54,885 bases of DNA, from assembly GCA_003599015.1 (NCBI GenBank), contig QZIK01000096.1, forward strand, positions 1-54,885, read 5' to 3'. The position numbers and the translations under genes are program-made. A model generated the notes under the pieces. It saw only the letters and a program-made list of their open reading frames with translations. It did no database searches and was not told the DNA's origin. Positions 1,866 to 54,885 of this stretch are shown piece after piece. Each line of letters starts with the position of its first letter. The first letter of the stretch is position 1. Source of the DNA: Desulfobacteraceae bacterium. Its GTDB lineage: Bacteria; Desulfobacterota; DSM-4660; Desulfatiglandales; Desulfatiglandaceae.

Positions 1866-3164
1866 ATGACACAATTATTAAGCGCCAGGGCGGGTGAAAT
1901 CACCCCCGAAATGCGGCAGGTGGCGGACCGGGAGAGGGTTGAACCGGAGATCATCAGACAGGGAGTGGCTGCCGGAACCATTGTTATACCCCGCAATAAA
2001 GGCCGCCGGAACATTATCCCCACCGGAATCGGAGCCGGGCTGAAAACCAAGGTCAGTGCCAGTGCAGGCATTTACGGTGAACAGGGCAGTATTGGCGCTG
2101 AAATTGAAAAGATTCGCTCTGCAGTGGGAGCGGGGACTGATGCAATTATGGATTTGAGCGTAAGCGGGGATATTGATTTCATGCGCCAAGAAGCACTATC
2201 TGCCACTTCTACGCCCGTGGGAACACTTCCCCTGTACCAGGCCATGGCCGAAGCAAGCCAAAAATATGGCTTCTCTCTAAAAATGGATGTAGAAGAACTT
2301 TTTGAAGTCATAGAGCGGCATACTGCTGATGGGGTAGACTTTTTGGCCCTGCACTGCGGCACTACCATGAGTATTGTAGAGCGTGCCAAAAAGGAAGGGC
2401 GGGTAGACCCTCTGGTAAGTTACGGGGGATCACATCTGATCGGGTGGATGCTGTATAACCAGAGAGAAAATCCTCTTTATGAACAGTATGACAGGATTCT
2501 TGCCATTGCCAAAAAGTACGATGTCACCATTAGCCTTGCTGATGGTATGAGACCCGGGTGCCTGGCCGATTCCCTGGACGGTGCCCAGGTGCAGGAACTG
2601 GTTCTTCTGGGAGAACTGGTGAGACGGGCCAGGGAAGCCGGTGTTCAGGTAATGGTCAAGGGGCCGGGCCATGTCCCCATCAACCAGCTAAAAGCAACTA
2701 TTACGCTGCAAAAAAGCCTTTGTAAAGGAGCTCCTTACTTTGTATTCGGACCTGTTGTAACTGATCTAGCTGCTGGCTACGACCATATCAGTGCAGCCAT
2801 TGGCGGTGCCATCAGTGCCTGGGCCGGTGCAGAGTTTCTTTGCTATGTAACATCTTCCGAACACCTGGGTCTTCCGGATATAGACCAGGTACGAGAGGGA
2901 GTAGTTGCAGCCCGCATCGCTGCTCATGCAGCCGATTTGGCCAAGGAGCTGCCGGGAGCTGCAGATTGGGATCTGGATCTTTCCCGGGCCAGGAAAGAAC
3001 TGGACTGGAAACAACAGATCTCCCTGGCTATCGATCCGGTGCGGGCTGAACGTTTGAGAAAAGAGAGAACCGATGATTTCGCTTCGGAATGTACCATGTG
3101 TGGAAAATATTGCGCTATGGAGATAGTATCGAAATATTTGGACGGTTCCAAAAAAGCTTGTTAA
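1866..3164 (+). CDS. bzaA: BzaA, ThiC-like 5-hydroxybenzimidazole synthase subunit
   Basis: This 432-residue ThiC paralogue starts at an ATG seven bases after AAAGGAGGGG. With BzaB it is expected to turn aminoimidazole ribotide (AIR) into 5-hydroxybenzimidazole by radical SAM chemistry in the cytoplasm. ThiC-family signatures are present along the chain: IPRNKGRRNIIPTGIG near residue 40, LHCGTTMS, and EGPGHVP-like KGPGHVPINQ near 265. A C-terminal Cys cluster CTMCGKYC should bind the radical-SAM [4Fe-4S] cluster. Its spacing is CX2CX3C, one residue shorter than the CX2CX4C I know from ThiC. It is first in a tightly packed operon with bzaB and cobT, 24 bases upstream of bzaB. The A versus B label follows gene order in the described Eubacterium limosum operon. 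Confidence 0.93.
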   Translation: MTQLLSARAGEITPEMRQVADRERVEPEIIRQGVAAGTIVIPRNKGRRNIIPTGIGAGLKTKVSASAGIYGEQGSIGAEIEKIRSAVGAGTDAIMDLSVSGDIDFMRQEALSATSTPVGTLPLYQAMAEASQKYGFSLKMDVEELFEVIERHTADGVDFLALHCGTTMSIVERAKKEGRVDPLVSYGGSHLIGWMLYNQRENPLYEQYDRILAIAKKYDVTISLADGMRPGCLADSLDGAQVQELVLLGELVRRAREAGVQVMVKGPGHVPINQLKATITLQKSLCKGAPYFVFGPVVTDLAAGYDHISAAIGGAISAWAGAEFLCYVTSSEHLGLPDIDQVREGVVAARIAAHAADLAKELPGAADWDLDLSRARKELDWKQQISLAIDPVRAERLRKERTDDFASECTMCGKYCAMEIVSKYLDGSKKAC

Positions 3165-3188
3165 GCATTAACGAAAGGGTGAAGGTAA

Positions 3189-4469
3189 ATGACCCAAGTC
3201 TTAGCGGCGCGTGCCGGTAAAATCACACCGGAGATGGAAATGGTGGCGAAAAGTGAAAATGTTGATGTCGAATTTATCAGGGCGGGAGTAGCTGCGGGTA
3301 AAATCGTTATTCCCAGGAATGTGAAACGGAAAGTAGTAAAGCCCTGCGGTATAGGAGAGGGAATTCGTATAAAAGTAAATGCTCTCTTCGGCACATCCAG
3401 CGGCCGAGACCTGATGGAAATGGAAACAAGAAAACTGGCAATTGCGGAAGCTGCAGGATGTGATGCGGTTATGGATTTAAGCACTGGTGGAGACATTGAC
3501 GGGATGAGAAAGAATACGCTGGCAGTGGCCAATGTACCTGTTGGTAGTGTGCCAATTTATCAGGCTGCCATCGAAGCTATAGAAAAAAGAGGCAGTATTG
3601 TAGCTATGACTGCAGACGATATGTTTGAAGCTGTGGAAAAACAGGCTGCCGATGGCGTGGATTTCATGGCCATTCACAGCGCCTTGAATTTTGACGTGAT
3701 CAAACGCCTGCAGATAAGTGGCAGGGTAACAGATGTGGTCAGCCGGGGTGGAGCTTTTCTCATAGGCTGGATGCTTCATAACCAAAAAGAAAACCCTCTC
3801 TATGAACAATTTGACAGGCTCCTGGCCATTCTCAAAGAATATGACGTTACCCTCAGCCTGGGGGATGCCATCCGCCCGGGATCTACGGCCGACTCGCTGG
3901 ATGGGGCACAGCTCCAGGGGATGATCATTGCAGGTGAACTGGTGGTAAGGGCCCAGGCGGCAGGAGTGCAGGTTATGGTAGAAGGCCCTGGCCATGTTCC
4001 CATGCACCATGCGGAATCCACCATCCGTTTGCAGAAGCGTTTATGCCATGGTGCGCCTTACTTTATCCTGGGATTGCTGGCTACTGACGTGGCGCCGGGC
4101 TATGACCATATCACCTCGGCTATTGGCGGAGCATTAGCGGCCACAATTGGTGCTGACTTCCTCTGCTATGTGACTCCTGCAGAACATTTGGGATTACCAA
4201 ATGAAGAGGATGTAAAAGAGGGGGTTATAGCTGCCAGGATTGCTGCCCATGCTGCAGACCTGGCCAGGGGCAACAAGAAAGCCTGGGAAAGAGATTTGCA
4301 GATGGCGCAAGCCCGGGTAGCATTGGATTTAGAGAGGCAAGTTGCCTTTTCTGTTGACCCCGAGAAATTCAGGGCGGTTTTAGGGAACGGAGAAGGTGAG
4401 CACCAGTGTGCTCTCTGCGGAAGCAGCTGTGCTATCCAGGTGGCGGCTGAGTATTTTGGCCTCGCTTAA
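3189..4469 (+). CDS. bzaB: BzaB, second ThiC-like benzimidazole synthase subunit
   Basis: This 426-residue protein is a diverged duplicate of BzaA throughout (opening MTQVLAARAGKITPEM versus MTQLLSARAGEITPEM). Known bzaA-bzaB pairs are both needed to form 5-hydroxybenzimidazole, whereas a lone BzaF does it in other anaerobes. Visible family motifs are IPRNVKRKVVKPCGIG, EGPGHVPMHH and LGLPNEEDVKEGV. The C-terminal cluster is CALCGSSC, again CX2CX3C. The ATG follows GAAAGGGTGAAGG and lies 24 bases after bzaA. The tandem arrangement indicates an ancient duplication followed by specialisation. Confidence 0.93.
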   Translation: MTQVLAARAGKITPEMEMVAKSENVDVEFIRAGVAAGKIVIPRNVKRKVVKPCGIGEGIRIKVNALFGTSSGRDLMEMETRKLAIAEAAGCDAVMDLSTGGDIDGMRKNTLAVANVPVGSVPIYQAAIEAIEKRGSIVAMTADDMFEAVEKQAADGVDFMAIHSALNFDVIKRLQISGRVTDVVSRGGAFLIGWMLHNQKENPLYEQFDRLLAILKEYDVTLSLGDAIRPGSTADSLDGAQLQGMIIAGELVVRAQAAGVQVMVEGPGHVPMHHAESTIRLQKRLCHGAPYFILGLLATDVAPGYDHITSAIGGALAATIGADFLCYVTPAEHLGLPNEEDVKEGVIAARIAAHAADLARGNKKAWERDLQMAQARVALDLERQVAFSVDPEKFRAVLGNGEGEHQCALCGSSCAIQVAAEYFGLA

Positions 4470-4531
4470 AGGACAGGGGTTTAATGAGCCGGGGGAGAGC
4501 TGGAGAATTCAATACAGGAGGCAGAACAAGG

Positions 4532-5599
4532 ATGGCATTAACACTAAAAACTGTAATCGAGGGTATCGAGCCGGTAAGCCAGGAATGGCGTTTGAAGGTC
4601 AGGGATTACCTAAACAACCTGGCTATTCCCCAGGGAAGCCTGGGGGAACTTCTCACTCTTGCGGAACAACTGGCAGCTATCAAAAGGACTTTGAAACCTT
4701 CCGTGAAGAGAAAAATAGTTGTGACCATGGCTGGAGATCACGGGGTGGTCGAAGAGGGAGTGAGCGCATTTCCCCGGGAAGTGACCTCCCAGATGGTGGC
4801 CAATTTTGCGTCCGGTGGGGCGGCGATCAATGTGCTGTCAGAGGCAGCCGGCGCCCGAGTGATTGTAGTCGATATGGGGGTTGCCGCTGATTTGAACGAA
4901 ATGGTTAGCAACGGCAAGGTCCTTTCTTACAAGGTGGACTATGGCACCCGCAACATGACAGAGGGTCCTGCCATGAGCCGGGAACAGGCGCGGAAGGCCC
5001 TGGAGGCAGGCATAGATATTGCTGGGAAACTGGTCCAGGAAGGAGCAGATCTCCTGGCTACGGGGGACATGGGCATCGGAAATACAACATCCAGCAGTGC
5101 CATTCTTGCTGCTTTATCAGGCCGCCCTGTCGGTGAGGTGACTGGCAGGGGAACGGGGATCAGCAATGAAGCATTGGAAAATAAAATCCGGGTCATTCAA
5201 AAGGCCCTGGATGTCAACAGGCCCGATGCCAGCGACCCTGTCGATGTGCTGGCCAAGGTAGGCGGGTTTGAGATTGGCGGGATTGCCGGGCTTATTCTGG
5301 GGGCGGCTTACCACCAGGTCCCCGTGATGGTGGATGGATTTATCTCCTCTGCCGGAGCCCTTCTTGCCAAACATTTAGCGCCTGACTCGGTGCAGTATAT
5401 GATTGCCGCCCACCGTTCTCAAGAGTATGGGCACGGGTTCATGCTGGAGAAGTTGGGCCTGAAGCCGCTGCTCAACCTGAACCTGTGCCTGGGAGAAGGG
5501 ACTGGAGCGGCTCTGGCCATTAATGTGGTGGAAGCAGCCGCCCAGGTGATAGGAAAGATGCTTACCTTCGAGGACGCAGGAGTATCCAGAAATTTATGA
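4532..5599 (+). CDS. cobT: CobT, nicotinate-nucleotide:benzimidazole phosphoribosyltransferase
   Basis: CobT activates the benzimidazole made by the surrounding enzymes to its alpha-ribotide using nicotinate mononucleotide. The chain is about 355 residues, typical for the family. It contains GDHGVVEEGVSAFP near residue 70, TGDMGIGNTTSSSA near 175, and a C-terminal LGEGTGAAL with the expected catalytic glutamate. The ORF track opens at 4484, but ATG 4532 is preferred: it follows AGGAGG by ten bases and gives a normal N-terminus. Its position between bzaB and bzaC matches the E. limosum operon order. Its TGA overlaps an upstream ATG of bzaC. Confidence 0.95.
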   Translation: MALTLKTVIEGIEPVSQEWRLKVRDYLNNLAIPQGSLGELLTLAEQLAAIKRTLKPSVKRKIVVTMAGDHGVVEEGVSAFPREVTSQMVANFASGGAAINVLSEAAGARVIVVDMGVAADLNEMVSNGKVLSYKVDYGTRNMTEGPAMSREQARKALEAGIDIAGKLVQEGADLLATGDMGIGNTTSSSAILAALSGRPVGEVTGRGTGISNEALENKIRVIQKALDVNRPDASDPVDVLAKVGGFEIGGIAGLILGAAYHQVPVMVDGFISSAGALLAKHLAPDSVQYMIAAHRSQEYGHGFMLEKLGLKPLLNLNLCLGEGTGAALAINVVEAAAQVIGKMLTFEDAGVSRNL

Positions 5600-26779: not shown

Positions 26780-29101
26780 ATGAAAAAAACCCGTGGGCGG
26801 GACAAGCCTCTCCCAAGATTCAAAGCTCTTAAAGCTTCAATGTCTCTGGTAATAATTATGGCCATTCTCGCCAGTGCCGGTACCCTTACCATTGTTTATT
26901 CCTACGTTAGTGATGCTCCTGATTCCAACCCCTGGCTGCTGCATTCTTCTTTCTCGTCCCGTGTCTATGACCGTTACGGCAATGAAATAGCTGCACTCTA
27001 CGGCGAACAAAAACGCCTGGAAATCCCCCTGGAGGATGTCCCCCTGCACGTGCAAAATGCTTTTATCGCCGTGGAAGATGAAAGGTTTTATGAACATATC
27101 GGCATTGACTTCCTGGCCATAGCCAGGGCTTTCCTTGCTAACTTTCGCCAGCGCTCCTGGACAGAGCAGGGGGGAAGTACCATAACACAGCAATTAATCA
27201 AGAACGCTTATCTTACCCGGGAAAAAACTCTGAACCGTAAGGTTAAGGAAGTATGGCTGGCTCTCAAGATGGAGCGGGAGTTTTCCAAAAGTGAAATTCT
27301 GGAGATGTATCTTAACCAGATCTACTTTGCTCATGGGGCTTATGGCGTCGAGGTGGCAGCAAACAGTTATTTTCAAAAAAAAGCCGGCGAACTGACTATT
27401 GCCGAAGCTGCTTTACTGGCGGGAATTCCCCGGTCACCCAACTTTTATTCACCTTTTGTAAACTTTGAGGCTGCTCTGCAGAGACAGGCCCTGGTCCTAA
27501 AAAAGATGAACGAGCTTGGCTTCATCAGCCAGGAGCAATTAAAGGAAGCCATGGAGCAGGAAATAATCCTCGCCGATCCACCGACGCGCGAGTATCCCTT
27601 TCCTTATTTTATAGATTACGCCCTTCATAATGAACTGGTCGGTATCCTCAGCGGGTTGCCCCAGTTTGGCAGCCGCAAAGAGGTCTATGAGGCCATCTAT
27701 AATATGGGCTTAAAAATTTACACTACCATGGATGCCGGCATCCAGTCCGTCATGGAAAACACTCTGAGCGACGAAAGCCTTTATCCCCAAAATCAGCGGG
27801 TGGATATGGCTCTGTTGAAGCAGCTGCTGGATAGTGGAAATTATGATCATTATCCTGAGGAAGCCCTTGCGGAGGATGGAATTCCCCAGCCGCAGGTTGC
27901 TGCTGTAGCGGCTGATCCGGCTACAGGTGAAGTTCTGGCCCTGGTGGGGGGAAGGGAATACGGTAAAGACAACCAGGATCTGCGCTACCTGAGCCCCAGG
28001 CAGCCGGGTTCTGCCATCAAGCCCATCGTTACCTACGCTCCGGCCCTGGAAGAAAACCTTGTTACACCTGGCTATATTGTCGATGACGCCCCTTTTCACA
28101 GGGGAGACTGGGCCCCGGAAAATTTCGGCAGGCGTTTTTTGGGCCTGGTTACAGTAAGGGAATCACTGGCAAAGTCCTTAAATGTCCCCGCCGTAAAGGT
28201 ATTTGCACAGCTAGGGCCGCGCCTTGGTCTGGAGTATGCTAAAAGAATGGGCCTTACAACTATTCACCCCGACGACTATAACCTGGCTGCAACCCTGGGA
28301 GGCTTAACCAGGGGGGTAACGGCCTGGGATATGGCCCAGAGTTATGCCGTCCTGGCCAACGAAGGCATAAAAGTAAACCTGCATACGATAAAAAGAATTG
28401 AGGATCGCAACGGAAAGGTTCTTTATGAACATCGCCGTAAACCTGAGGCTGTTCTCAGCCCCCAGACAGCTTACCTGGTCTCGGATATGCTGAAGGATGT
28501 GGTCCTGCGGGGAACAGCATCAGGTTTGAAGGCAGGGCGACCCCTGGCGGCCAAGACAGGCACTACCAGCGATAACCGGGATGCATATTTAATTACCTAC
28601 ACACCGGAAATTGTGGTTTCCTTCTGGATGGGGCACGATATTCAAAGGATGGGAAGGATTCCCGGTGGGAGCAGGGACACCATACCATTTATGAATATCA
28701 TACTGCCGCAAATCCTGGAAGCCTTTCCGCCTTCTGATTTTACCATGCCCACAGGTCTGATCGGCCCGGTTAATATTTGCCGCAAATCAGGCTTAAGGCC
28801 GGGACCTTCCTGTCCCGAGGAGGATATAGTCGCTGAGATCTTTCCCGCGGAGCAGGTTCCCCAGGATACCTGTAATTTACACGTATCTCTGAGAATCTGC
28901 CGGTCCAGCGGTCTTCTGGTTGGTAACTACTGCCCGCCCGGCGAGGTGGAAAGAAGAATCTTCCTGTACCGGCCTCCTTTCGAACGGACCGATGAGCGCT
29001 GGAGGGGAGAACCGGGCAGAGGCCCGGAAGATGCCGCTCTTTTACCGCCGTGGGAGTACTGCTGGCAGCATACCTGGTGGCGGAGATATAGATTTTGGTA
29101 A
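26780..29101 (+). CDS. Class A penicillin-binding protein (PBP1A-type)
   Basis: This is a bifunctional peptidoglycan synthase of about 773 residues. A cytoplasmic basic stretch and one membrane helix (SLVIIMAILASAGTLTIVYS) come first. The GT51 glycosyltransferase follows: EDERFYEHIGID, GGSTITQQLIKN, KVKEVWLALKMER and LEMYLNQIYFAHGAYG. The transpeptidase then shows the active-site SAIK (QPGSAIKPIVTY), SLN in AKSLNVPAV, and the KTGT box. The C-terminus has two Cys-containing PBP-tail segments (CRKSGLRPGPSCPEE; CRSSGLLVGNYCPP). ATG 26780 is chosen after AAGGGG; an upstream in-frame start at 26720 lacks a ribosome site. Confidence 0.95.
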   Translation: MKKTRGRDKPLPRFKALKASMSLVIIMAILASAGTLTIVYSYVSDAPDSNPWLLHSSFSSRVYDRYGNEIAALYGEQKRLEIPLEDVPLHVQNAFIAVEDERFYEHIGIDFLAIARAFLANFRQRSWTEQGGSTITQQLIKNAYLTREKTLNRKVKEVWLALKMEREFSKSEILEMYLNQIYFAHGAYGVEVAANSYFQKKAGELTIAEAALLAGIPRSPNFYSPFVNFEAALQRQALVLKKMNELGFISQEQLKEAMEQEIILADPPTREYPFPYFIDYALHNELVGILSGLPQFGSRKEVYEAIYNMGLKIYTTMDAGIQSVMENTLSDESLYPQNQRVDMALLKQLLDSGNYDHYPEEALAEDGIPQPQVAAVAADPATGEVLALVGGREYGKDNQDLRYLSPRQPGSAIKPIVTYAPALEENLVTPGYIVDDAPFHRGDWAPENFGRRFLGLVTVRESLAKSLNVPAVKVFAQLGPRLGLEYAKRMGLTTIHPDDYNLAATLGGLTRGVTAWDMAQSYAVLANEGIKVNLHTIKRIEDRNGKVLYEHRRKPEAVLSPQTAYLVSDMLKDVVLRGTASGLKAGRPLAAKTGTTSDNRDAYLITYTPEIVVSFWMGHDIQRMGRIPGGSRDTIPFMNIILPQILEAFPPSDFTMPTGLIGPVNICRKSGLRPGPSCPEEDIVAEIFPAEQVPQDTCNLHVSLRICRSSGLLVGNYCPPGEVERRIFLYRPPFERTDERWRGEPGRGPEDAALLPPWEYCWQHTWWRRYRFW

Positions 29102-29123
29102 TCACAAGACATCATGGTATAAT
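29095..29123 (+). promoter_or_regulatory. Promoter of the HI0933-type flavoprotein gene
   Basis: A TTGGTA -35 box (29095-29100) is followed after 17 bases by a perfect TATAAT -10 (29118-29123). It overlaps the end of the penicillin-binding protein gene, so the next gene has its own promoter. Confidence 0.6.
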
Positions 29124-30438
29124 ATGGGGAGGTAAAAACTTAGACAAGAAGAAGTTAAGTACACATAAACTGGTGCCTGGCGCCTTGCAGAAGGTGAACT
29201 TTTTGCCGGATACTAAAAGGGTTATTGTCATCGGCGGCGGTGCTGCCGGGATGCTTGCCGCAGGAACTGCCGGGTCCCGGGGCCTTGACGTTCTTTTAAT
29301 CGAAAAAAACAACATCCTCGGCAGAAAGCTTTTGATAACAGGAAAGGGCAGGTGTAATATCACCAACAGTGTCGGCGAGATCGGTGATCTTATCGCCAAT
29401 ATTCCTGTAAACGGCAAATTTTTATACAGCGCTTTCCATACTTTTTCCAATTATGACCTTATTAAATTATTTAACGAACTGGGCCTGGAGACCAAAGTGG
29501 AACGCGGTGGAAGGGTATTTCCCGCTTCAGATCGGTCTGTGGATGTGGTCAATGCTTTAAAGAAGTACCTGAACAAAAACAATGTCCAAATAATAAAAGG
29601 TGAAGTGCAAAAAATTGTCGCCCAAAATAACATTGTTAGCAAAGTTGTTCTTCAGGATGGAAGAATTTTTTTATGCCAAAGCGTAATTGTGGCCACGGGA
29701 GGCATGTCTTATCCCCAGACGGGTTCAACAGGTGATGGTTACCGTTTTGCCCGGGAAAGCGGGCATACGGTCACACCTTTAACACCGTCGTTAGTCCCCC
29801 TTGAGGTTAAAGAGAGGTGGGCAGCGGAACTGCAGGGATTATCGCTGAAAAACGTGGCCATTTCCCTTCTGGACGAAAACAATAAAGAATTATACAGGGA
29901 TTTTGGTGAAATGCTCTTCACCCATTTCGGTGTTTCCGGCCCCATCATTTTATCGGCAAGCTCATACCTTGGAAATATTAATAAAAAAAAATACCGGCTT
30001 GTTCTTGATTTAAAACCGGCACTTTCCGAAGAACAGCTGGATCTAAGGATACAGAGAGATTTCCACAAGTATGCCAACAGGTTTTTTGTCAATTCATTAC
30101 CGGACTTACTTCCCAAAAAGATGATTCCTGTGATTATAAAGCTGTCTAAAATTTCTCCGGAAAAGCCTGTTAATCAAATTTCCAGAAGTGAAAGGAAAAA
30201 GCTTGTGGAGTTACTTAAAAACCTTACCCTGGAAATTAAAAAGTACCGGCCCTTAAAAGAAGCGATCATAACCTCCGGCGGAGTGGCCGTTGAAGAGATA
30301 AATCCCTATACAATGGAATCCAAACTGGTTAAAGGGCTTTTTTTTGCAGGTGAAGTTATCGATGTCAATGCCTATACCGGGGGCTTTAACCTGCAGATTG
30401 CTTTTTCTACGGGATACCTGGCGGGATTGAACTGCTGA
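29095..30438 (+). CDS. HI0933/BaiN-like NAD(P)/FAD-dependent oxidoreductase
   Basis: This is an FAD enzyme of the HI0933 family, about 410-420 residues when functional. The dinucleotide fold is VIVIGGGAAGMLAAGTAGSRGLDVLLIEKN. Family motifs GRKLLITGKGRCNITN, VATGGMSYPQTGSTGDGY and a C-terminal FFAGEVIDVNAYTGGFNLQIAFSTGY follow. Substrate is unknown. The start is uncertain: the track's GTG 29095 lies inside the promoter. The good ribosome site GGGGAGG (29126-29132) is followed at ideal spacing only by an in-frame TTA. Downstream GTG codons at 29173 and 29194 lack ribosome sites but fit family length. Confidence 0.88.
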   Translation: MVITRHHGIIWGGKNLDKKKLSTHKLVPGALQKVNFLPDTKRVIVIGGGAAGMLAAGTAGSRGLDVLLIEKNNILGRKLLITGKGRCNITNSVGEIGDLIANIPVNGKFLYSAFHTFSNYDLIKLFNELGLETKVERGGRVFPASDRSVDVVNALKKYLNKNNVQIIKGEVQKIVAQNNIVSKVVLQDGRIFLCQSVIVATGGMSYPQTGSTGDGYRFARESGHTVTPLTPSLVPLEVKERWAAELQGLSLKNVAISLLDENNKELYRDFGEMLFTHFGVSGPIILSASSYLGNINKKKYRLVLDLKPALSEEQLDLRIQRDFHKYANRFFVNSLPDLLPKKMIPVIIKLSKISPEKPVNQISRSERKKLVELLKNLTLEIKKYRPLKEAIITSGGVAVEEINPYTMESKLVKGLFFAGEVIDVNAYTGGFNLQIAFSTGYLAGLNC

Positions 30439-36052: not shown

Positions 36053-36829
36053 ATGGCTGACGATTCCTGCTGTAAGTTGATTGAATCATCCTGGAACCCG
36101 GTTACCGGCTGCACCAAAATCAGCCCGGCTTGCAAAAACTGTTATGCCGAGAGATTTGCTTTGCGGCTGCAAAATATAGGCAGCCCGGCCTATAAAAACG
36201 GTTTTCAAGTCACTTTACATCCAGAACGCCTGAATTTACCGCTCAAGTGGAAAAAGCCCAGAATAGTTTTTGTTAACTCCATGGGCGATTTGTTTCATGA
36301 AGAGGTACCCGTGCCGTTCATTAAGCAGGTATTTGAAACAATGAAAACCGCTTCCCGGCATACCTTTCAACTTTTAACCAAACGTGCCGAACGCCTTGCA
36401 GAAATCTCCCCCTATTTTTGCTGGCCTGATAATATTTGGATTGGGGTAACTGTAGAAAACCAAAATTATACATGGCGTATTAACCACCTTAACCTTGTTC
36501 CTGCTATGGTGAAGTTTATTTGCATGGAGCCCCTGTTAGGTCCGGTTGCAAATTTACCCCTGGAGGGCATTGATTGGGTTATCGTGGGGGGAGAGTCCGG
36601 CCCGAAAGCCCGTGTGATGCTTATTGACTGGGTACGCCAGATCCGCGATCAATGTTTAAAAAGAAACGTGCCCTTTTACTTTAAACAGTGGGGCGGAATT
36701 TACAGGGCGGAAAAAGGCCGTTTTTTGGATGGGCGGACGTGGGATGGCATGCCCTTATGCCTAGAACCTGTACAAAGTGAAAGCGGTAATTTAACTAATG
36801 ATGATCCTGCTATTGACAACAATCCATGA
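36053..36829 (+). CDS. DUF5131 (phage Gp37/Gp68) family protein
   Basis: This 258-residue protein starts with KLIESSWNPVTGCTKISPACKNCYAERFA, the Cys-containing signature of the Gp37/Gp68 (DUF5131) family. FVNSMGDLFHEEVP, IWIGVTVENQ, FICMEPLLGPV, WVIVGGESGPKARVM and FYFKQWGG follow, in family order. The fold resembles radical SAM proteins, and three cysteines (TGC, PAC, NC) might bind a cluster. Function is unknown. The usual neighbour in phages and islands, a three-Cys-motif partner (TcmP), is not seen here. Confidence 0.85.
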   Translation: MADDSCCKLIESSWNPVTGCTKISPACKNCYAERFALRLQNIGSPAYKNGFQVTLHPERLNLPLKWKKPRIVFVNSMGDLFHEEVPVPFIKQVFETMKTASRHTFQLLTKRAERLAEISPYFCWPDNIWIGVTVENQNYTWRINHLNLVPAMVKFICMEPLLGPVANLPLEGIDWVIVGGESGPKARVMLIDWVRQIRDQCLKRNVPFYFKQWGGIYRAEKGRFLDGRTWDGMPLCLEPVQSESGNLTNDDPAIDNNP

Positions 36830-40107: not shown

Positions 40108-42133
40108 TAAATATTGCCAAATGCAATAATTTATACTAGAAACTTGAATCTACGATAAATATTTTCAGAAATAGCGGTATTTACCATATTTTACCTTGTA
40201 CTTTTCTCCCACCTGTTGTATGATAGTGGTGGGAGGGATGACGCATGATCGAATTGTTCAACCAGGGGCCGGGCGTTAATCTCAGCTTTGTACGACCAGT
40301 TAGGCATAGGCAAGACTATCGACGAGATGGTACACTGGGATCCTGTACAGTGTCGGCTCTCACCGGGAACCCGCATCAAGGCACTGGTTATCAATATCTT
40401 CGGCCGGCAAAAGCCTTTGTACCGGCTGGATGAGTTCTTTGAGAATATGGATATTGAAAACCTTTTCGGCAAAGGTATCCACCGGGAAGACCTGACCGAT
40501 TACAACATGGCCAGAGCACTGGATAAACTGGGTGAAAGAGGGCCTTGGGAAGTCTTCTCCAGCATATGTCTTCGGGCCATCTGCCATGAGCAGATTAAGC
40601 CAAAGTACCTGCACAGCGATACCACCTCCATCTCCCTTTATGGCATGTATGAAGACCAGGACGGTAGAGAATTCATCATTACCCACGGTCACAGTAAGGA
40701 TAAGCGACCCGATTTAAAACAGTTCCTTTATGGCTTAAGTGTAACTCCCGATAAAGTGCCAGTCTGCGCCGATGTTAAAAGCGGCAACACTAGCGATAAG
40801 ACCTGGAATTTCGATTTTATTGAAAAACTGTCTGAAGCTTTGAATCCGCAAGTATTGCAAAAGGTTATCTACATCGCCGATTCGGCTTTAGTCACTGAGG
40901 ATAACCTGAAACGGATAGCAGGACACCGCCTTCAGTTCATCTCCCGTCTGCCGGGTAATTTCGGCCTGGAAAAAGAGCTCAAGGAGCAGGCCTGGCAAAA
41001 AGAAAGTGATTTTCAAGAGCCGGGGCGTTTCTCAGATAAAAAAGATGCTGCATCTTACCGTCTCCAGGAATTCAGGGAAGAGCTTTACGGGAAATGCTAC
41101 CGTTTCCTGGTAGTACACTCTACGAAGCTGGACGGCCGCAAAACCAAGACCCTGCAAAAAGAGCTATCACGCCGGGAAAAGGAGCTGCAAAAAGCCATCC
41201 AGCAGCTTGAAAAGCAGCTTTTCGCCTGTGAGCCTGATGCCAAAGCGGCCTTGGCCCTGTTCCAGAAACAGCATAAAGATAATTACTTCACCCTCAGTGG
41301 TCAGGTGGTCTGCCAGGAGAAAAGGAAACCGGGACGGCCCGGCAATAATAACCTACCGGAGGATATCTACTGCCTGAAATTGCAGTACACTGCCGACGAA
41401 GCTGCTATACAAGAGGCCAAGGAGCGCCTTAGCTGTTTTGTACTCATTACCAACCTGGATGAGGAGTACACAGCAGGTCATATCTTAAAAGAATACAAGG
41501 CGCAAAACACGGTGGAGACTTCGTTTAAGTTTCTTAAAGATCCGCTTTTTGTGGGTCCTATCTACCTGAAAAAACCTGGCCGCGTGGAGGCTTTGGCCTA
41601 TGTTTTGCTGATTGCCTTACTCATCTTCGGTATCCTGGAACGCCGGGTCCGGGAAGCGATGAAACATGAGACGGAGCCGCTGATTATCCCGGGCAAGGTG
41701 AAGACGTTCAGCCCCACCAGGAAAAAGATTTTGGAAGCTGTGGAGACGGTGCTGGTCATGACGACCGATGACCCTTACCGCCGGGCTTTTTCTAAAAGAT
41801 ACAAGGTGCCCCGGGTTCTGAAACTGGCCGGGTTTGGGCCGGATATTTATCTTGATATCCGCGACGGGCCGTAATATTACCAAATATTAACTACAATGAT
41901 TTTGGGCGGTAGGGTGTTGAATGCCCGTTTTATTGTAATATCTAGATAATCGGACTTTTTGGCGGTAATTGCAGGATTTTTTATACAAATAACGAAATAT
42001 TTCTCATATCAATAGTTGTCACTTTATTTGAAATTCGCAATTTCATAGGGTTTTTCAATAACGATTTCAGCTTGACCAATTTGAGTTACTTGTTTCCTAA
42101 ATTCTATTGAGCAGTGTTAAGTGTATACCTTGA
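40108..42133 (+). mobile_element. IS1634/IS4-type insertion element (ends unresolved)
   Basis: The interval between the broken helicase and the broken McrB-like gene holds one transposase gene and about 370 bases of non-coding DNA. I could not find convincing terminal inverted repeats. AATATT(G/A)CCAAAT occurs in direct orientation at 40112 and 41876. An IS promoter (TTGTAC, 17 bases, TATGAT at 40196-40224) precedes the transposase. The coordinates are the outer bounds of the gap, not proven ends. Confidence 0.6.
40245..41874 (+). pseudogene. IS1634-family DDE transposase, N-terminal frameshift
   Basis: The main frame gives about 528 residues of an IS4-superfamily (IS1634 group) transposase. 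It has the first catalytic Asp in KYLHSDTTSISLYG, the second in VIYIADSALVTEDN, and the Glu region TVETSFKFLKDPLFVGPIYL before a hydrophobic tail. The true start is probably ATG 40245, seven bases after GGGAGGG. That frame (MIELFNQGPGVNLS) must shift by one base near 40275-40287 to join LISALYDQLGIGKTIDEM. Either the element is inactive, or a sequencing error or programmed shift is present. Confidence 0.85.
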
Positions 42134-42697
42134 AAACCTTCCGTTCTTTATGTAATTGGCACGGTGAATATGGATGAAACCACCCATGCCTTTAGTAGAA
42201 AAGTATTGGACCGGGCCAATACTATTGAATTTTCGGAGGTATATTTGGACCGGTTCCCCTCTGTAGAGGAATCCGTTACAGTCGAGTCCAAGGAAACGCC
42301 TTTACTGGAAAACCACCTATTGCGAAGTGATTATCTCACATTGAAAGATTGTATCCATAGGAACGAGGCATATTTGCATGAAAAAGTAAAGATCTTGCAG
42401 GCGTTAAACGAGATTCTGCAACCCTGCGGTTTGCATGTGGGTTACCGGGTGCGTGATGAGTTCTGCTTTTATTTGTTATACAACAAAATATGGGAATTAT
42501 TAAGCGAAGATGAAGCCATTGATTTCCAAATCATGCAGAAGATATTGCCACGTATACAGGGAAACTCTACTGAAATTGAAAAGATGCTGGAAAAACTGAT
42601 AAAGTTTTGTGAAATTCAGTACCCGCGCAGCAGGGCAAAATGTGAATTTATGCTGGGGAGGTTCCGTGATGATGGTTTTACCTCTTTCTGGCTTTAA
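42134..42697 (+). pseudogene. McrB-like AAA+ ATPase, C-terminal stump
   Basis: After an in-frame TGA at 42131 the frame reads LYVIGTVNMDETTHAFSRKVLDRANTIEF. This is the sensor/N-loop segment of McrB-type AAA+ GTPases (TVNMDE motif), followed by about 170 C-terminal residues. Walker A and B are missing, presumably removed by the event that left the IS element. No ribosome site precedes it. Its 3' end overlaps the intact DUF2357 nuclease gene by 29 bases, the close coupling expected of McrB-McrC pairs. The system cannot be functional in its usual form. Confidence 0.85.
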
Positions 42698-45218
42698 ACC
42701 AAGGGAACTGCTGGTTGTTACTACGGAGTATTTTGAGCTATTTATCAAAGGGGTTCCGGAGAATAAAACTGTGGAGGCCTTTCGTTTACACCAGGATCAA
42801 GAGGGCAGGCCGCTGCAAGCATCCCTCGATATCAAGCCTGATGTTTATCCGGTGTATGTTTATGATCCGATTGCCCCGGAAGGGCTTAAGTTATACCATG
42901 GCGACGGTATCTACCCTTGCTTTTTTGAACAAAAGAACTATGAGCTGGTAATTGAAAAAAAAGAGGGATGTCCAGACGATCTTACGCTGGTCCATCCAAA
43001 CCGAAAACTGCGGGAGTCGGTCACACCTACAGGCAGGCAAGGTCGTGTCCTTTCAGGGATCATTAATTTTGGTGATGAAGTTGGTTTTTCCCGTTTCGAA
43101 GTGCAAGGAAATGGTAAATGCTTACTGTCTTTTGAGCTTGAAGTCTTTCCTGGGAAGATGGATTATCAGAAGGATTTCCATCGCCTGTTACAGGATGTTA
43201 ACGAAGAGGTTTATAACCTGGCTTTTGACTTTTTAATGAAGACATATCTAACTGCCGGATTAAAAAGTGAAAAGGACCCTTCTCCGGCAGAATTTTATGC
43301 AATTCTGCAAATAATTTATCGTATGCTTTTGAAAGCACTAGATCAGGTAGCCCACCACCCCCATCAAAAAATAACACCGCTAAACCAAATTGTCCGGCCG
43401 GAAAAAGTGAAAAAAGCAGATGCGGCAACAGCAAAGTGGCTTAACTCCAGGGCTTATCTGCTAGAGCGGGGGGAAGTAGGGATATCTATTGCTGCTAATA
43501 AATATGTGCCACGGAAGCTCCTGGACCGTAAAAAAGAGCGAAGCTTCGATACTTACGAAAACCGCTTTCTGAAATGGGTTATTACCCGGGTAGTCCGGAA
43601 ATTACGTGATTTTTTGCAGCGGTACCGGGATTGTTACGAGGACAATGCAGACCCTCTGCTTATAGATAATCTAGACAAGATGCGTCGGACAATGGAACGT
43701 TACTGCGCTTCTCCTTTCTTACGGGAAGTGGGATCCCTGGAACGTGTGGAAGCTTCCTCCCTGGTCATGCAGATGGCCCCCGGTTACCGGGATGTTTTTA
43801 AGTATCATCTGATGCTACTAAAAGGCCTCAATGTGCAATCAGATTTGTTTAATATCTCTCTAAAAAATACAGCAGAGTTGTATGAATACTGGTGTTTCTT
43901 AAAGCTGAATGCGTTATTGCGGAAAAAATACTACTTGGAGTGCAATGACATAATTACTGTGGAACGGCAGGGAATCGCTGTTCATTTAAGGAAGGGCAAG
44001 GAGTCTGAACTACGCTATATGAACCGTCACAACGGTGAACGATTTTCTCTGATTTACAACCGTGTTTTTACTGGCTTACCTACGACAGCGCAGAAACCGG
44101 ACAACATGTTGATCCTGGAAAAACAAGGCTCCAGTGTACGCTATCATTTTATCTTTGATGCAAAATATCGCTTAGCAGTAAATGAGGAGTATGTGCGTAA
44201 CTTTCGTCAGCCCGGACCACCGGAGGATACTATCAATACCATGCATCGCTACCGGGATGCTATTCTTGCTGGTGTTGGCATGGATGGTGATTATCAGCGA
44301 AATATTTTCGGGGCATTCGTGCTTTTTCCCCATAACGATGAGATGGCCTTCGCGGGAAAAAGGGGTTCTCTGCCCAGCCGTTTTTATGAAAGTATTGAAG
44401 TTACAGGAATTGGTGCTTTGCCATTTTTGCCATCACAAACAGTTTTGGTGGAAAACCTGCTGGATGATCTTTTCCGGGAAACACCGGAGACTGCTTTTGA
44501 ACGAACGGTTATCCAGGAAGGCACTGTAGAATATCTTGATAGTACAGCAGCAAAGAATGACGTTCTCATTGGCCCACTGGGGCGAAAAGAGCAGTTAATG
44601 GTGTGCCTTGAAAACAATATGTATTATACGTACCTAAACCGGGTGCAGTCGTTCCTGGGTGAACTCAGATACGTAGCTATATACCAATCAAAACGAAAGT
44701 TTAAGGACGTTACTGAGCAAGGTATTTTTTATTTTGGGGAGATTAATGGGTTTTCCATATGCAGACGCAAAGAGATTAAGGAAATGCCGCCGAGCAGGGA
44801 AGAAGATAAGGAAAAATTGGTAGTGAAGTTTTTTGTAGAGCAATGGTCCAGGCGAGACCCTGGCATTCTTGCCGAAGGGTATGGTCCAGCATCCCCACAG
44901 AGGACAGGCTGGCGTCTCTTTAAGGATGCAACGATTTATCCGGAATTGCACCTGGATCCCATAGAAGTTCGCCTCTGGCGAGAACTTCGCCGTTTAGATG
45001 AATGTGTAGAAGTCCATTTTCCCAAAGATACAATTAGCAGTGACGACAAAATGGAATGGCTCCTTTTCCCTGGACTCAAGGTTTGGAGAACAGGATCTGA
45101 CAGTTTTAACGTTCAAACCAATGGCCATGAAAAACATTTTCAATTTAGTGGGCTGCGTCAAAGGCCTGGAAAAACATTACGAGAGATTCTTCGCTTTTGG
45201 CAGGAGAATATTGGGTAG
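42669..45218 (+). CDS. DUF2357-domain McrC-like PD-(D/E)XK nuclease
   Basis: This protein of 849 residues is the likely nuclease partner of the McrB-like AAA+ stump. A large N-terminal part (SGFKPRELLVVTTEYFELFIKGVPEN) leads into DUF2357 features (SIAANKYVPRKLLDRKKERSFDTYENRFLKWVITRVVRKL) near residue 280. A PD-(D/E)XK-type core then appears as PDNMLILE..HFIFDAKYRL near 480-505. The C-terminal ~200 residues are of unknown function. Expanded McrBC families with DUF2357 are known as modification-dependent or RNA-linked defence. ATG 42669 follows GGGGAGG by seven bases. Without its ATPase it is probably orphaned. Confidence 0.85.
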   Translation: MMVLPLSGFKPRELLVVTTEYFELFIKGVPENKTVEAFRLHQDQEGRPLQASLDIKPDVYPVYVYDPIAPEGLKLYHGDGIYPCFFEQKNYELVIEKKEGCPDDLTLVHPNRKLRESVTPTGRQGRVLSGIINFGDEVGFSRFEVQGNGKCLLSFELEVFPGKMDYQKDFHRLLQDVNEEVYNLAFDFLMKTYLTAGLKSEKDPSPAEFYAILQIIYRMLLKALDQVAHHPHQKITPLNQIVRPEKVKKADAATAKWLNSRAYLLERGEVGISIAANKYVPRKLLDRKKERSFDTYENRFLKWVITRVVRKLRDFLQRYRDCYEDNADPLLIDNLDKMRRTMERYCASPFLREVGSLERVEASSLVMQMAPGYRDVFKYHLMLLKGLNVQSDLFNISLKNTAELYEYWCFLKLNALLRKKYYLECNDIITVERQGIAVHLRKGKESELRYMNRHNGERFSLIYNRVFTGLPTTAQKPDNMLILEKQGSSVRYHFIFDAKYRLAVNEEYVRNFRQPGPPEDTINTMHRYRDAILAGVGMDGDYQRNIFGAFVLFPHNDEMAFAGKRGSLPSRFYESIEVTGIGALPFLPSQTVLVENLLDDLFRETPETAFERTVIQEGTVEYLDSTAAKNDVLIGPLGRKEQLMVCLENNMYYTYLNRVQSFLGELRYVAIYQSKRKFKDVTEQGIFYFGEINGFSICRRKEIKEMPPSREEDKEKLVVKFFVEQWSRRDPGILAEGYGPASPQRTGWRLFKDATIYPELHLDPIEVRLWRELRRLDECVEVHFPKDTISSDDKMEWLLFPGLKVWRTGSDSFNVQTNGHEKHFQFSGLRQRPGKTLREILRFWQENIG

Positions 45219-52249: not shown

Positions 52250-52927
52250 TTACATGATTTCACTGAGTAGGTCTTCAATATGCCTGTACTTTTCCAGATA
52301 ATCTTCGTGAGCATATTTTATCACTTGATAGGCATCGTCCCTGCCGTAAACGTCCACAATTTCACAGTAATTGCTTTTGCTCCCGGGAGCGTGTTTATAG
52401 GTTAAAAAGAAGTGCCGGAGCCTTTCTATGACCCCTTGCGGGCAGTCTCTTACGTCCTGCCACTCTCTGTAAAGAGCATCATCCTGTAAAACGGCAATGA
52501 TTTTATCATCAGCTTCCCCGTTATCGATCATGCGAAAACCTCCGATGGGGTGCGCCTTTAACAGGATATCGCCGTGGGGAACCAGTTTTTCTGTCAGGAC
52601 GCAGATGTCCAGGGGGTCCCCGTCCCCGACAATATTCTCATAACTGCTCCTCTTTGTACAAAACCCCGCTACTTTGCTGCCGCAGTATGTTTGGGGCAGC
52701 ATACCGTATAAAGTGGGATAAATGTTGGAGTAAATCTGCGGCCGGTCCACCTTGAGGAGGCCGCTGTCCTTATCCAGCTCGTATTTCACCGTATCGCTGG
52801 GCACGACTTCAATATAAACGGTTACTGTTTCAGGCTGCCCATCGCCGAGTGTTACTCCATGCCAGGGATGGGCTCTGAAAAGCTGTCTTTCCAATAGCAG
52901 AGACCTTTTTCTTTTATCCTCTAACAT
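52250..52927 (-). CDS. ppa: Inorganic pyrophosphatase (soluble, family I)
   Basis: This 225-residue enzyme hydrolyses pyrophosphate. The family I signature with metal-binding aspartates appears as GDGDPLDICVL, with VYIEVVPSDTVKYELDKDSGLLKVDRPQ before it and NGEADDKIIAVLQDD after it. It is longer than the 175-residue bacterial type because of N-terminal and C-terminal extensions, as in a subset of anaerobic bacteria. It is encoded alone on the minus strand. Confidence 0.92.
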   Translation of the reverse strand: MLEDKRKRSLLLERQLFRAHPWHGVTLGDGQPETVTVYIEVVPSDTVKYELDKDSGLLKVDRPQIYSNIYPTLYGMLPQTYCGSKVAGFCTKRSSYENIVGDGDPLDICVLTEKLVPHGDILLKAHPIGGFRMIDNGEADDKIIAVLQDDALYREWQDVRDCPQGVIERLRHFFLTYKHAPGSKSNYCEIVDVYGRDDAYQVIKYAHEDYLEKYRHIEDLLSEIM

Positions 52928-53019
52928 AAACCATCAATCCTTTGTAACTTTCTTAAGCATTAAGTACCTTTCCAAAAATCATTACTTTTTAACCAAGCCC
53001 GTGCAATTGCAAGTGGGTT

Positions 53020-53044
53020 GCAAGTGGGGACGGTTCTTGCTTGC
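53020..53044 (+). repeat. Left inverted repeat of the RAYT element
   Basis: A 25-base arm starting GCAAGTGGGGACGG is an exact inverted match to 53908-53932 and 53953-53977. It also carries the transposase promoter -35 (TTGCTT 53037), 16 bases before TATAAT at 53059. Confidence 0.9.
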
Positions 53045-53082
53045 CAGGCAAAATATGGTATAATAGTAAAGAGGTGAAAAAT

Positions 53083-53904
53083 ATGCCCAGGCAAGCAAGG
53101 ATAAAGGGAGAATTTTCTATTTACCACATAATCCAGAGGGGAAATGAGAGAAAAAGCCTGTTTCTTTCTGACGACGACAGGTTAAGGTTTATTGATACTC
53201 TTTGGAGGATGAAGAAAAAGTATAACTTTCTGCTTTATGCCTACTGCTTGATGGATAATCACGTGCATTTATTAATTGACGATAACGGAAATGACATATC
53301 CAGGCTGGTAAAAAGTATCAACATAAGCTATGCATACTATTTCAATCAGACATATAAGAGGTGTGGGCACCTGTTTCAGGACCGGTTCAGGAGTGAGTTG
53401 GTAGATAATGACGAGTATCTACTTGGGGTGAGCCGGTACATCCATAATAATCCGGTTAAAGCAGGGATCGTGAAAAAGCCTCCCGAATATCGTTGGAGCA
53501 GTTATAATATTTATACCGGTATGGCAAGAGACATAGATGGGTTAATTGATAAAGGCAGGATTCTAAGCAGCTTTTCAAGCAGCCTGGTAAAGGCTGTTAA
53601 AGAGTATGTAGATTATGTATATAAAGAAGAGGGAAAACAGATAAATTTCATGGATGTTGAGGAACCGGTTTCAGATGATTATAATAGTGACTATATCTGT
53701 ACAATGGAGCAGGCCCGGATAAAAATACAAGAAGCTGCGGAAAGCAAAAAATTAAAATATGAAGAATTAATAAACCAGATTGAGATTCGTAATGAGTTAA
53801 TGAGACAAATAAGAAAGAATTCTTCCCTAACATTAAAACAGATTGGAGAGTTGTTTGGGGGGATAAGTGAATCCAGGGTGAGCAGGATTGTGACCAAAGG
53901 CTAA
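53083..53904 (+). CDS. REP-associated tyrosine transposase (RAYT, Y1 HUH family)
   Basis: This 273-residue protein has the full single-strand transposase layout. MPRQARIKGEFSIYHIIQRGNERK opens it; the metal-binding HUH pair is in YCLMDNHVHLLID; and the catalytic tyrosine region is GVSRYIHNNPVKAGIV. A C-terminal helix-turn-helix (SLTLKQIGELFGGISESRVSRIV) resembles DnaA/Rrp-type ends of this class. ATG 53083 follows AAAGAGGTG; the ORF track's start at 53041 lies in the repeat. Inverted repeats flank it, so the gene probably belongs to a small mobile unit acting on these palindromes. Confidence 0.93.
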   Translation: MPRQARIKGEFSIYHIIQRGNERKSLFLSDDDRLRFIDTLWRMKKKYNFLLYAYCLMDNHVHLLIDDNGNDISRLVKSINISYAYYFNQTYKRCGHLFQDRFRSELVDNDEYLLGVSRYIHNNPVKAGIVKKPPEYRWSSYNIYTGMARDIDGLIDKGRILSSFSSSLVKAVKEYVDYVYKEEGKQINFMDVEEPVSDDYNSDYICTMEQARIKIQEAAESKKLKYEELINQIEIRNELMRQIRKNSSLTLKQIGELFGGISESRVSRIVTKG

Positions 53905-53980
53905 CTAGCAAGCAAGAACCGTCCCCACTTGCTCCTGACCAAAGGCTAACTAGCAAGCAAGAACCGTCCCCACTTGCTCC
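53891..53980 (+). repeat. Two perfect 45-bp tandem copies across the RAYT stop codon
   Basis: Bases 53891-53935 are repeated exactly at 53936-53980. Each copy includes the last four codons and stop of the transposase (TGACCAAAGGCTAA) and a full right inverted repeat arm. A further run of CACTTGCTCC units (to about 54008) follows, indicating more slippage or partial duplication. Confidence 0.93.
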
Positions 53981-54101
53981 CCACTTGCTCCCACTTGCTC
54001 CCCACTTGCCGTCGGAACAACCGGACAAAAAGAAAACGAGCTTTACCCATAATAAAGAAGGGGGAACCCATGGGGTTCTCCCCTTTGGAATGAGTTCTAA
54101 T

Positions 54102-54885
54102 TTACCTGCGCAGGGGTTTGCTGACGGAGTAATGGCCGCCCACGGTATCCACCACTTTGCCTTCAACGAGGATCTGCACGGCCTCGACTTCTTCCAGCTG
54201 GGTAAGGGTCCAGACGATGGAGTTGATGAGGACTCCTTCCGTTTCTGCCCCGTAGCCGGCTGCTACTATTTCGCCGGAAAAATCCACGTAGGCGATCCCG
54301 TTTTCCACCCGGAGATCCAGCAGCCTGGTACCTTCAGGGATAATCCTGTTCAATCCCTGATCCTGCGGACCTTTAAGCAGTTCTTCCACCAGTTCCCGGG
54401 CTCCGGGTTGACCGGCAAAAGTTCTTGTTTCCGGGCCCATCCTAAAGCTCGTGTCTGTTACTTCCATGAAGTAGAGTTCCACGGCACCTTCTTGGGGAGC
54501 TGCTCTGCGGACGATTTTTTCTCCGGACAACTGTTCCAGGATATGCTGCAGTTGAGAGATCTCCCTGCTGCTTACGATTAAAACCGCGGCCTCATCCGTT
54601 ACCCACCTGGCTGTCCTGCTTTCCCCGATATAATTTTCGAAAACGTTCCAGGCTTTGGCATTGAGATAGACCGAACCACCGGCCAGCCTGCCGTATTCCG
54701 CACCCGGCAAGGAGGCGGATTCTACCGGCTTTGTCGTATAGAAAACGTCGATATAATCTTTTTCCCCTGCTCCCTGGAAGCGCAGCACATATTCGTATAA
54801 ATCGTTATCCAGGATGCCGGCCTTTTTCAGCTTCATCTCCGGCGGGAGGATCTCCGGCAGCCTGGATGCTTCCGGCCAGATTCTT
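54102..54885 (-). CDS. GerMN-domain protein, 5' truncated by window edge
   Basis: The reading frame is open past the ORF track's ATG (54836) to the window end, adding RIWPEASRLPEILPPE, so the gene continues outside. The visible C-terminal ~120 residues form a GerMN domain (VELYFMEVTD, LVEELLKGPQDQG, GIAYVDFSGEI, LEEVEAVQILVEG). The preceding ~130 residues are an unidentified domain (GRLAGGSVYLNAKAWNVFENY). The role is probably at the cell or spore surface. It is related to the two-domain lipoprotein encoded at 32.2-33.2 kb. Confidence 0.85.
   Translation of the reverse strand, partial: RIWPEASRLPEILPPEMKLKKAGILDNDLYEYVLRFQGAGEKDYIDVFYTTKPVESASLPGAEYGRLAGGSVYLNAKAWNVFENYIGESRTARWVTDEAAVLIVSSREISQLQHILEQLSGEKIVRRAAPQEGAVELYFMEVTDTSFRMGPETRTFAGQPGARELVEELLKGPQDQGLNRIIPEGTRLLDLRVENGIAYVDFSGEIVAAGYGAETEGVLINSIVWTLTQLEEVEAVQILVEGKVVDTVGGHYSVSKPLRR

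Follow-up and report, generated by a model that had tools for sequence, protein, structure and literature searches.

What is the element formed by a transposase gene with the same sequence inverted at both flanks, and does the duplicated end beside it record a recent jump? The question was addressed at one locus of a 54,885-nucleotide stretch of DNA (the window), where a sequence-only reading had described a RAYT-type gene bounded by exact inverted repeats, a duplicated 3' end and a ladder of short repeats. The protein, the repeats, the host of the contig and related loci in other genomes were analysed.

The transposase gene and its ends

The gene (53083–53904, plus strand) encodes a RAYT/TIRYT transposase of 273 aa with a Y1_Tnp HUH domain (H60-V-H62; catalytic Tyr119) followed by a C-terminal helix-turn-helix. 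Its product, P0001, matched Pfam Y1_Tnp at 1.9e-17 and scored 76.9 bits with the NCBIfam model REP_Tyr_transpos, just under the cutoff of 80. H60, H62 and Y119 are invariant across 24 homologues. Among PDB entries the AlphaFold model (pLDDT 85) matches 4er8 best, a complex of TnpA_REP with a REP hairpin (E 1.9e-7, TM 0.77 on the target). The helix-turn-helix codons (LTLKQIGELFGGISESRVSRI, 53824–53895, plus strand) are assigned from weak, below-cutoff Pfam matches to Sigma70_r4, HTH_3 and HTH_31 and from predicted helices at residues 251–257 and 263–271 of the model; one homologue matched Bac_DnaA_C at 0.0028. Comparison with the closest relative (BRH_c4b, 82% amino acid identity) gave dN 0.09, dS 0.55 and dN/dS of about 0.17, and the gene is therefore kept by purifying selection.

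An exact 25-bp inverted repeat, GCAAGTGGGGACGGTTCTTGCTTGC, bounds the gene at 53020–53044 (plus strand) and 53908–53932 (minus strand), or 28 nt at 96%. No exact inverted repeat in the region is longer, and its length is far beyond chance, since first-order Markov controls averaged 10.6 and reached at most 18. A scan of the whole window revealed no further exact 18-bp inverted pair within 2.5 kb. The Y1_Tnp domain, the invariant HUH and Tyr residues, the 4er8-like model and the flanking pair confirm that the gene is of RAYT type and framed by terminal inverted repeats. In the left repeat, a 5' arm GCAAG (53020–53024) and a 3' arm CTTGC (53040–53044) enclose the core GGGGACGGTTCT (53026–53037).

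The right end is present twice. A 45-bp unit, TGACCAAAGGCTAACTAGCAAGCAAGAACCGTCCCCACTTGCTCC, spanning the last codons, the TAA stop and the right repeat (53891–53935), is followed in tandem by a copy of 100% identity (53936–53980) that contains a second right repeat (53953–53977, minus strand). Outside the right end lies a CCCACTTGCTCC ladder of three extra partial copies of the 5' arm and its G-run (53978–54009, minus strand). A shorter ladder, GCAAGTGGGTT, is found outside the left repeat at 53009, where it consists of a single partial copy, GCAAGTGGG (53009–53017, plus strand). A 45-bp tandem duplication followed by a ladder had been noted at first reading, and both are present, the duplication being perfect and the GCAAGTGGG ladder reaching 54009.

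Host of the contig

The window makes up the entire contig C3, from an assembly of 149 contigs that is 66% complete. Its PBP1A is 65–66% identical to those of two Bacillota MAGs (G070 and G071) and at most 46% identical to those of relatives in the assigned genus, family and order (44% for the same-genus genome). The threonine synthase gave 73% with G071 against 33% with the same-genus genome, and the pyrophosphatase 79% with G070. Because these housekeeping proteins match Bacillota MAGs (65–79%) far above the assigned genus (33–44%), C3 is most likely a mis-binned Bacillota contig and a contaminant of the assigned bin. Its size, about 1.8% of the assembly, is compatible with the reported contamination of 2.3%.

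A genome-wide search for the palindrome, the check proposed with the first reading, had a divided outcome. No further copies were found on the contigs of the assigned bin, an outcome that the first reading had named as refuting it, and many were found in genomes carrying relatives of the RAYT. The absence carries no weight against the finding, because C3 is probably a Bacillota contaminant. A one-mismatch match in contig C109 was rejected as a chance match inside a coding stretch.

Other features of the window were also recorded. A probable bzaAB-cobT operon for the lower ligand of vitamin B12 (1866–5599) encodes two ThiC-like proteins, of which the second exceeds the BzaB cutoff, and then CobT. 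The window further contains an IS1634-family transposase (40288–41874; NCBIfam 323 bits), a weak, below-cutoff match to radical SAM mobile pair protein A (36053–36829) and an 869-aa protein without an NCBIfam match (42609–45218).

Core, arms and promoter overlap

Compared across loci, each terminal repeat has GGGGACGGTTCT as its constant core; the short arms on either side are complementary to each other and differ from locus to locus. A stem of at least 5 bp was found at 28 of 36 RAYT left ends (mean 6.2 and maximum 13 in 2000 permutations). Over 219 sites the mean stem was 5.23, against 3.18 when permuted (maximum 3.43 in 200). The arms pair and covary in the relatives: in 12 ends set in a fixed register 98.6% of cells were paired, all six pairs had double changes, and the 27 double-change cells were matched by 0 of 500 shuffles. 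Slid registers of the same set paired at 11–42%. The window's own stem is just 5 bp with modest folding (-3.2 kcal/mol, z -1.5), and there was no Rfam match in 52700–54400. No paper describing GGGGACGGTTCT in this context was found in the open-licence literature.

Arm distance was related to helix-turn-helix distance given the catalytic domain (partial r 0.30, p 0.0005) and to the catalytic domain given the helix-turn-helix (partial r 0.12, p 0.03), in a Mantel-type test that removes shared ancestry in part only. The helix SESRVSR occurs with the arm GCAAG, NRGIVQK with TGTCA or TGACA, KSIVEKV with GGCAA and SKDIIFRA with GCGACA. The arm sequence appears to track the C-terminal helix-turn-helix more than the catalytic domain, which is a lead rather than proof because shared ancestry can inflate such tests.

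The left repeat also overlaps a putative promoter (53037–53064, plus strand). The -10 is a perfect extended TGGTATAAT (53056–53064), and the -35-like TTGCTT (53037–53042; 3/6) lies 16 nt upstream, inside the repeat; a consensus promoter scan returned no score for this box. In 17 of 36 loci the inner arm is the -35 box, often a perfect TTGACA, and in 16 of those 17 it is separated from the -10 box by exactly 17 nt. The mean promoter score exceeded all 1000 shuffles. The view that the left repeat supplies the -35 box therefore stands as to the overlap and is strong in many relatives; the box of the window itself is weak. A repeat that is transposase site and promoter at once would suggest negative feedback.

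The same overlap would be expected if the arms, instead of forming hairpin stems, were the two half-sites of a duplex operator bound by a dimer of the C-terminal helix-turn-helix, and the element were moved or silenced as duplex. A dyad operator would also predict the association of arm with helix-turn-helix, and arm symmetry and covariation. However, the arm spacing among RAYT left ends varies between 13 and 19 nt, a range that is hard to reconcile with a rigid duplex dyad, and the catalytic fold is that of enzymes acting on single-strand hairpins. We consider the operator explanation unlikely, and stem-loop ends are retained in the reading developed below.

Repeat populations in relatives and mobility of the unit

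Copies were counted with the 14-mer GGGGACGGTTCTTG, allowing at most one mismatch and with the reversed pattern as control, in the two genomes that carry the closest RAYT relatives. BRH_c4b (G061) held 116 sites and Soudan_19 (G062) 42; the control gave 1–2. Some of these sites form inverted pairs of about 60 bp, that is, REPINs, which fold at -39 kcal/mol. Both genomes also contain units with the same ends or fragments of them and large internal deletions (L239 near 108–304 and 5069–5291; L243 378–609; L238). The earlier suggestion that RAYT-linked palindromes multiply is borne out in these relatives. The repeat core lies on both sides of the RAYT gene in 44 of 80 related loci, and the repeats are conserved from one clostridial genus to another. 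Relatives thus contain, side by side, single ends, end-pairs in inverted orientation, copies with internal deletions and intact genes. These may be arranged as a natural series that runs from the full unit through the gutted unit and the end pair to the single end, with a presumed order of events along it. In Soudan_19, three single ends in the same direction lie within 1.5 kb (L242 252–277, 1253–1278 and 1705–1730); two of them (L182 and L184) have similar flanks, which suggests a duplicated cassette.

The window RAYT is 82 and 71% identical to those of G061 and G062, and 54 and 51% identical to those of G070 and G071. Threonine synthase shows the opposite trend (54 and 55% to G061 and G062, 73% to G071). 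Horizontal transfer is indicated, because RAYT relatedness conflicts with the host genes. No vehicle of transfer was found, since viral contigs (no exact end, one homologue at 35%) and plasmids (distant homologues) gave only distant matches. The orthologous interval between PBP1A and the next flavoprotein gene was compared at L236, L237 and 29095–29260 of the window: G070 has an intact related RAYT unit with ladders, G071 has a repeat cluster with a decayed RAYT gene, and the window has no repeat. The interval is a presence/absence difference for a related unit, which may reflect gain or loss. Comparison of the ppa neighbours among relatives yielded no empty site for the window's own unit; G070 was rejected for this purpose, its ppa neighbourhood being different.

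These observations bear on whether the gene is a domesticated one or a relic, with repeats that are passed on together with it and have lost their mobility. Domestication of a transposase has been described for TnpA_REP (PMC8266576), and the window contig holds one copy only. Discordance between the RAYT and host-gene phylogenies, the presence or absence of a related unit at an orthologous place, and relatives with multiple and internally deleted copies all argue against such a loss of movement, and we find it improbable.

Duplications and ladders at the ends

Of 148 sites, 48 carry a further copy of an arm immediately beyond the end (control mean 6.6, maximum 16); such copies lie 5' in 40 cases and 3' in 11. 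Partial copies of arm and G-run accumulate mostly at the outer 5' side of the ends. At L108, in a different lineage, a duplicated 3' gene tail and end are accompanied by a CCCCTTGCC ladder, as in the window, and the RAYT unit of G070 has ladders at both ends. Because these loci show the same features, the window duplication is one case of a recurrent process at such ends. The L108 joint has TTA common to both sides; no microhomology was seen by eye at the joint of the 45-bp duplication.

If the unit had transposed very recently and the 45-bp duplication were the scar of that event, the identity of both 45-bp units and of both 25-bp ends would be accounted for. Stretches of 25–45 bp are, however, too short for dating, near-identical ends persist in many relatives, the ladder and the end duplication recur elsewhere, and no empty-site relative was found for the exact place; such an event has little probability. 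The claim of very recent activity made at first reading is not sustained, given the conservation of the repeats across clostridial genera, the purifying selection on the gene and the recurrence of ladders and end duplications, of which L108 is a near-exact parallel. The duplication and ladder would thus be no proof of a recent jump. An assembly artefact at the right end is very improbable because other, independent assemblies show the same architecture and assemblers rarely invent perfect 45-bp tandems, for all that a contig end is about 0.9 kb away and the MAG is 66% complete.

Proposed mechanism

The window unit is probably a complete autonomous unit of the TIRYT/TIRtron type, with a transposase like that of TnpA_REP subclass 2.1 RAYTs (a class set by description) and a Bacillota (clostridial) host, operating as follows. 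The transposase would act on single-stranded DNA with the arms folded into a stem, by analogy with TnpA_REP and REP hairpins. The HUH domain would recognise or cut at the constant GGGGACGGTTCT core, and the C-terminal helix-turn-helix would read the arm sequence. Binding of the transposase is predicted to damp its expression, because the left end overlaps its promoter. The short repeats would come from units that kept both ends and lost the gene, and would be mobilised in trans. The 45-bp duplication and ladder may be local copying errors at the hairpin and G-run, through slippage or a template switch and perhaps with the help of cleavage at the outer border of the end.

More tentatively, clostridial TIRYT ends in general could be stem-loops carrying a two-part code, in which the HUH domain uses the GGGGACGGTTCT core, the helix-turn-helix reads a fast-changing stem and the inner arm is the -35. 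A change in the helix would then give each lineage a private, self-regulated repeat population. We regard this generalisation as possible.

Comparison with known systems

TIRYT/TIRtron elements (Di Nocera et al. 2013, PMC3733652) have in common with the window unit a RAYT-like gene with HUH and catalytic Tyr and terminal inverted repeats tagged with GGGG. In those elements, the repeats are also dispersed as singles, dimers and groups, some are partly self-complementary, and the motif GGGGWSAS occurs in some terminal repeats, not all. The window encodes a Y1 transposase with HUH, Tyr and RAYT signatures (76.9 against 80 bits with the NCBIfam model), and terminal inverted repeats, in place of GTAG REPs, flank the gene. 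Dispersed repeats are lacking in the assigned bin, which is probably not the host, and abundant in relatives. The window core GGGGACGG fits 7 of the 8 positions of GGGGWSAS and departs at position 7; the relative at L091 carries GGGGACAG. Arm covariation, ladders, promoter overlap and the association of helix-turn-helix with arm are absent from the available part of the TIRYT description (PMC3733652).

TnpA_REP subclass 2.1, equated with TIRYT by Quentin et al. 2018 (PMC6006769), has a C-terminal HTH/DnaA-like domain after the Y1 core. The window protein has this extension, with weak individual HMM scores. In that study, neither automatic nor manual searching detected REP-like sequences in the vicinity of subclass 2.1 genes (PMC6006769), whereas the ends of the window and its relatives appear to be REP-like stem-loops with a constant core. 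If the terminal repeats of this large subclass prove to be stem-loops, with a core that stays constant and arms specific to each lineage, the missing REP-like partner is identified, its REPIN populations become traceable in Clostridia, and transposase-repeat specificity becomes directly testable through helix or arm swaps. The deletion series, running within one genome from the full unit to the single end, is relevant to how REPINs arise.

IS200/IS605 elements (IS608, ISDra2) share the Y1 fold and terminal hairpins, a likeness that would be one of fold only. Their ends are not known to be inverted repeats of this type, nor their transposases to have the C-terminal helix-turn-helix. Gamma-proteobacterial RAYT/REPIN systems (Bertels and Rainey 2011, PMC3116915; Corneloup et al. 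2021, PMC8266576) share dispersed palindromes, inverted pairs, tandem clusters near the gene and a Y1 transposase. Their REPs have a constant tetranucleotide, GTAG, outside the hairpin, whereas the constant core of the window lies between the arms. The GTAG-tagged REP hairpins that flank group 2/3 RAYTs are replaced here by matched inverted GGGGAC repeats. Thus, the window element is of a known but little-studied kind, closest to TIRYT/TIRtron and TnpA_REP subclass 2.1. Beyond what is known of these, the comparisons suggest a constant core between covarying arms, arms that track the helix-turn-helix and, in many relatives, an inner arm serving as the -35.
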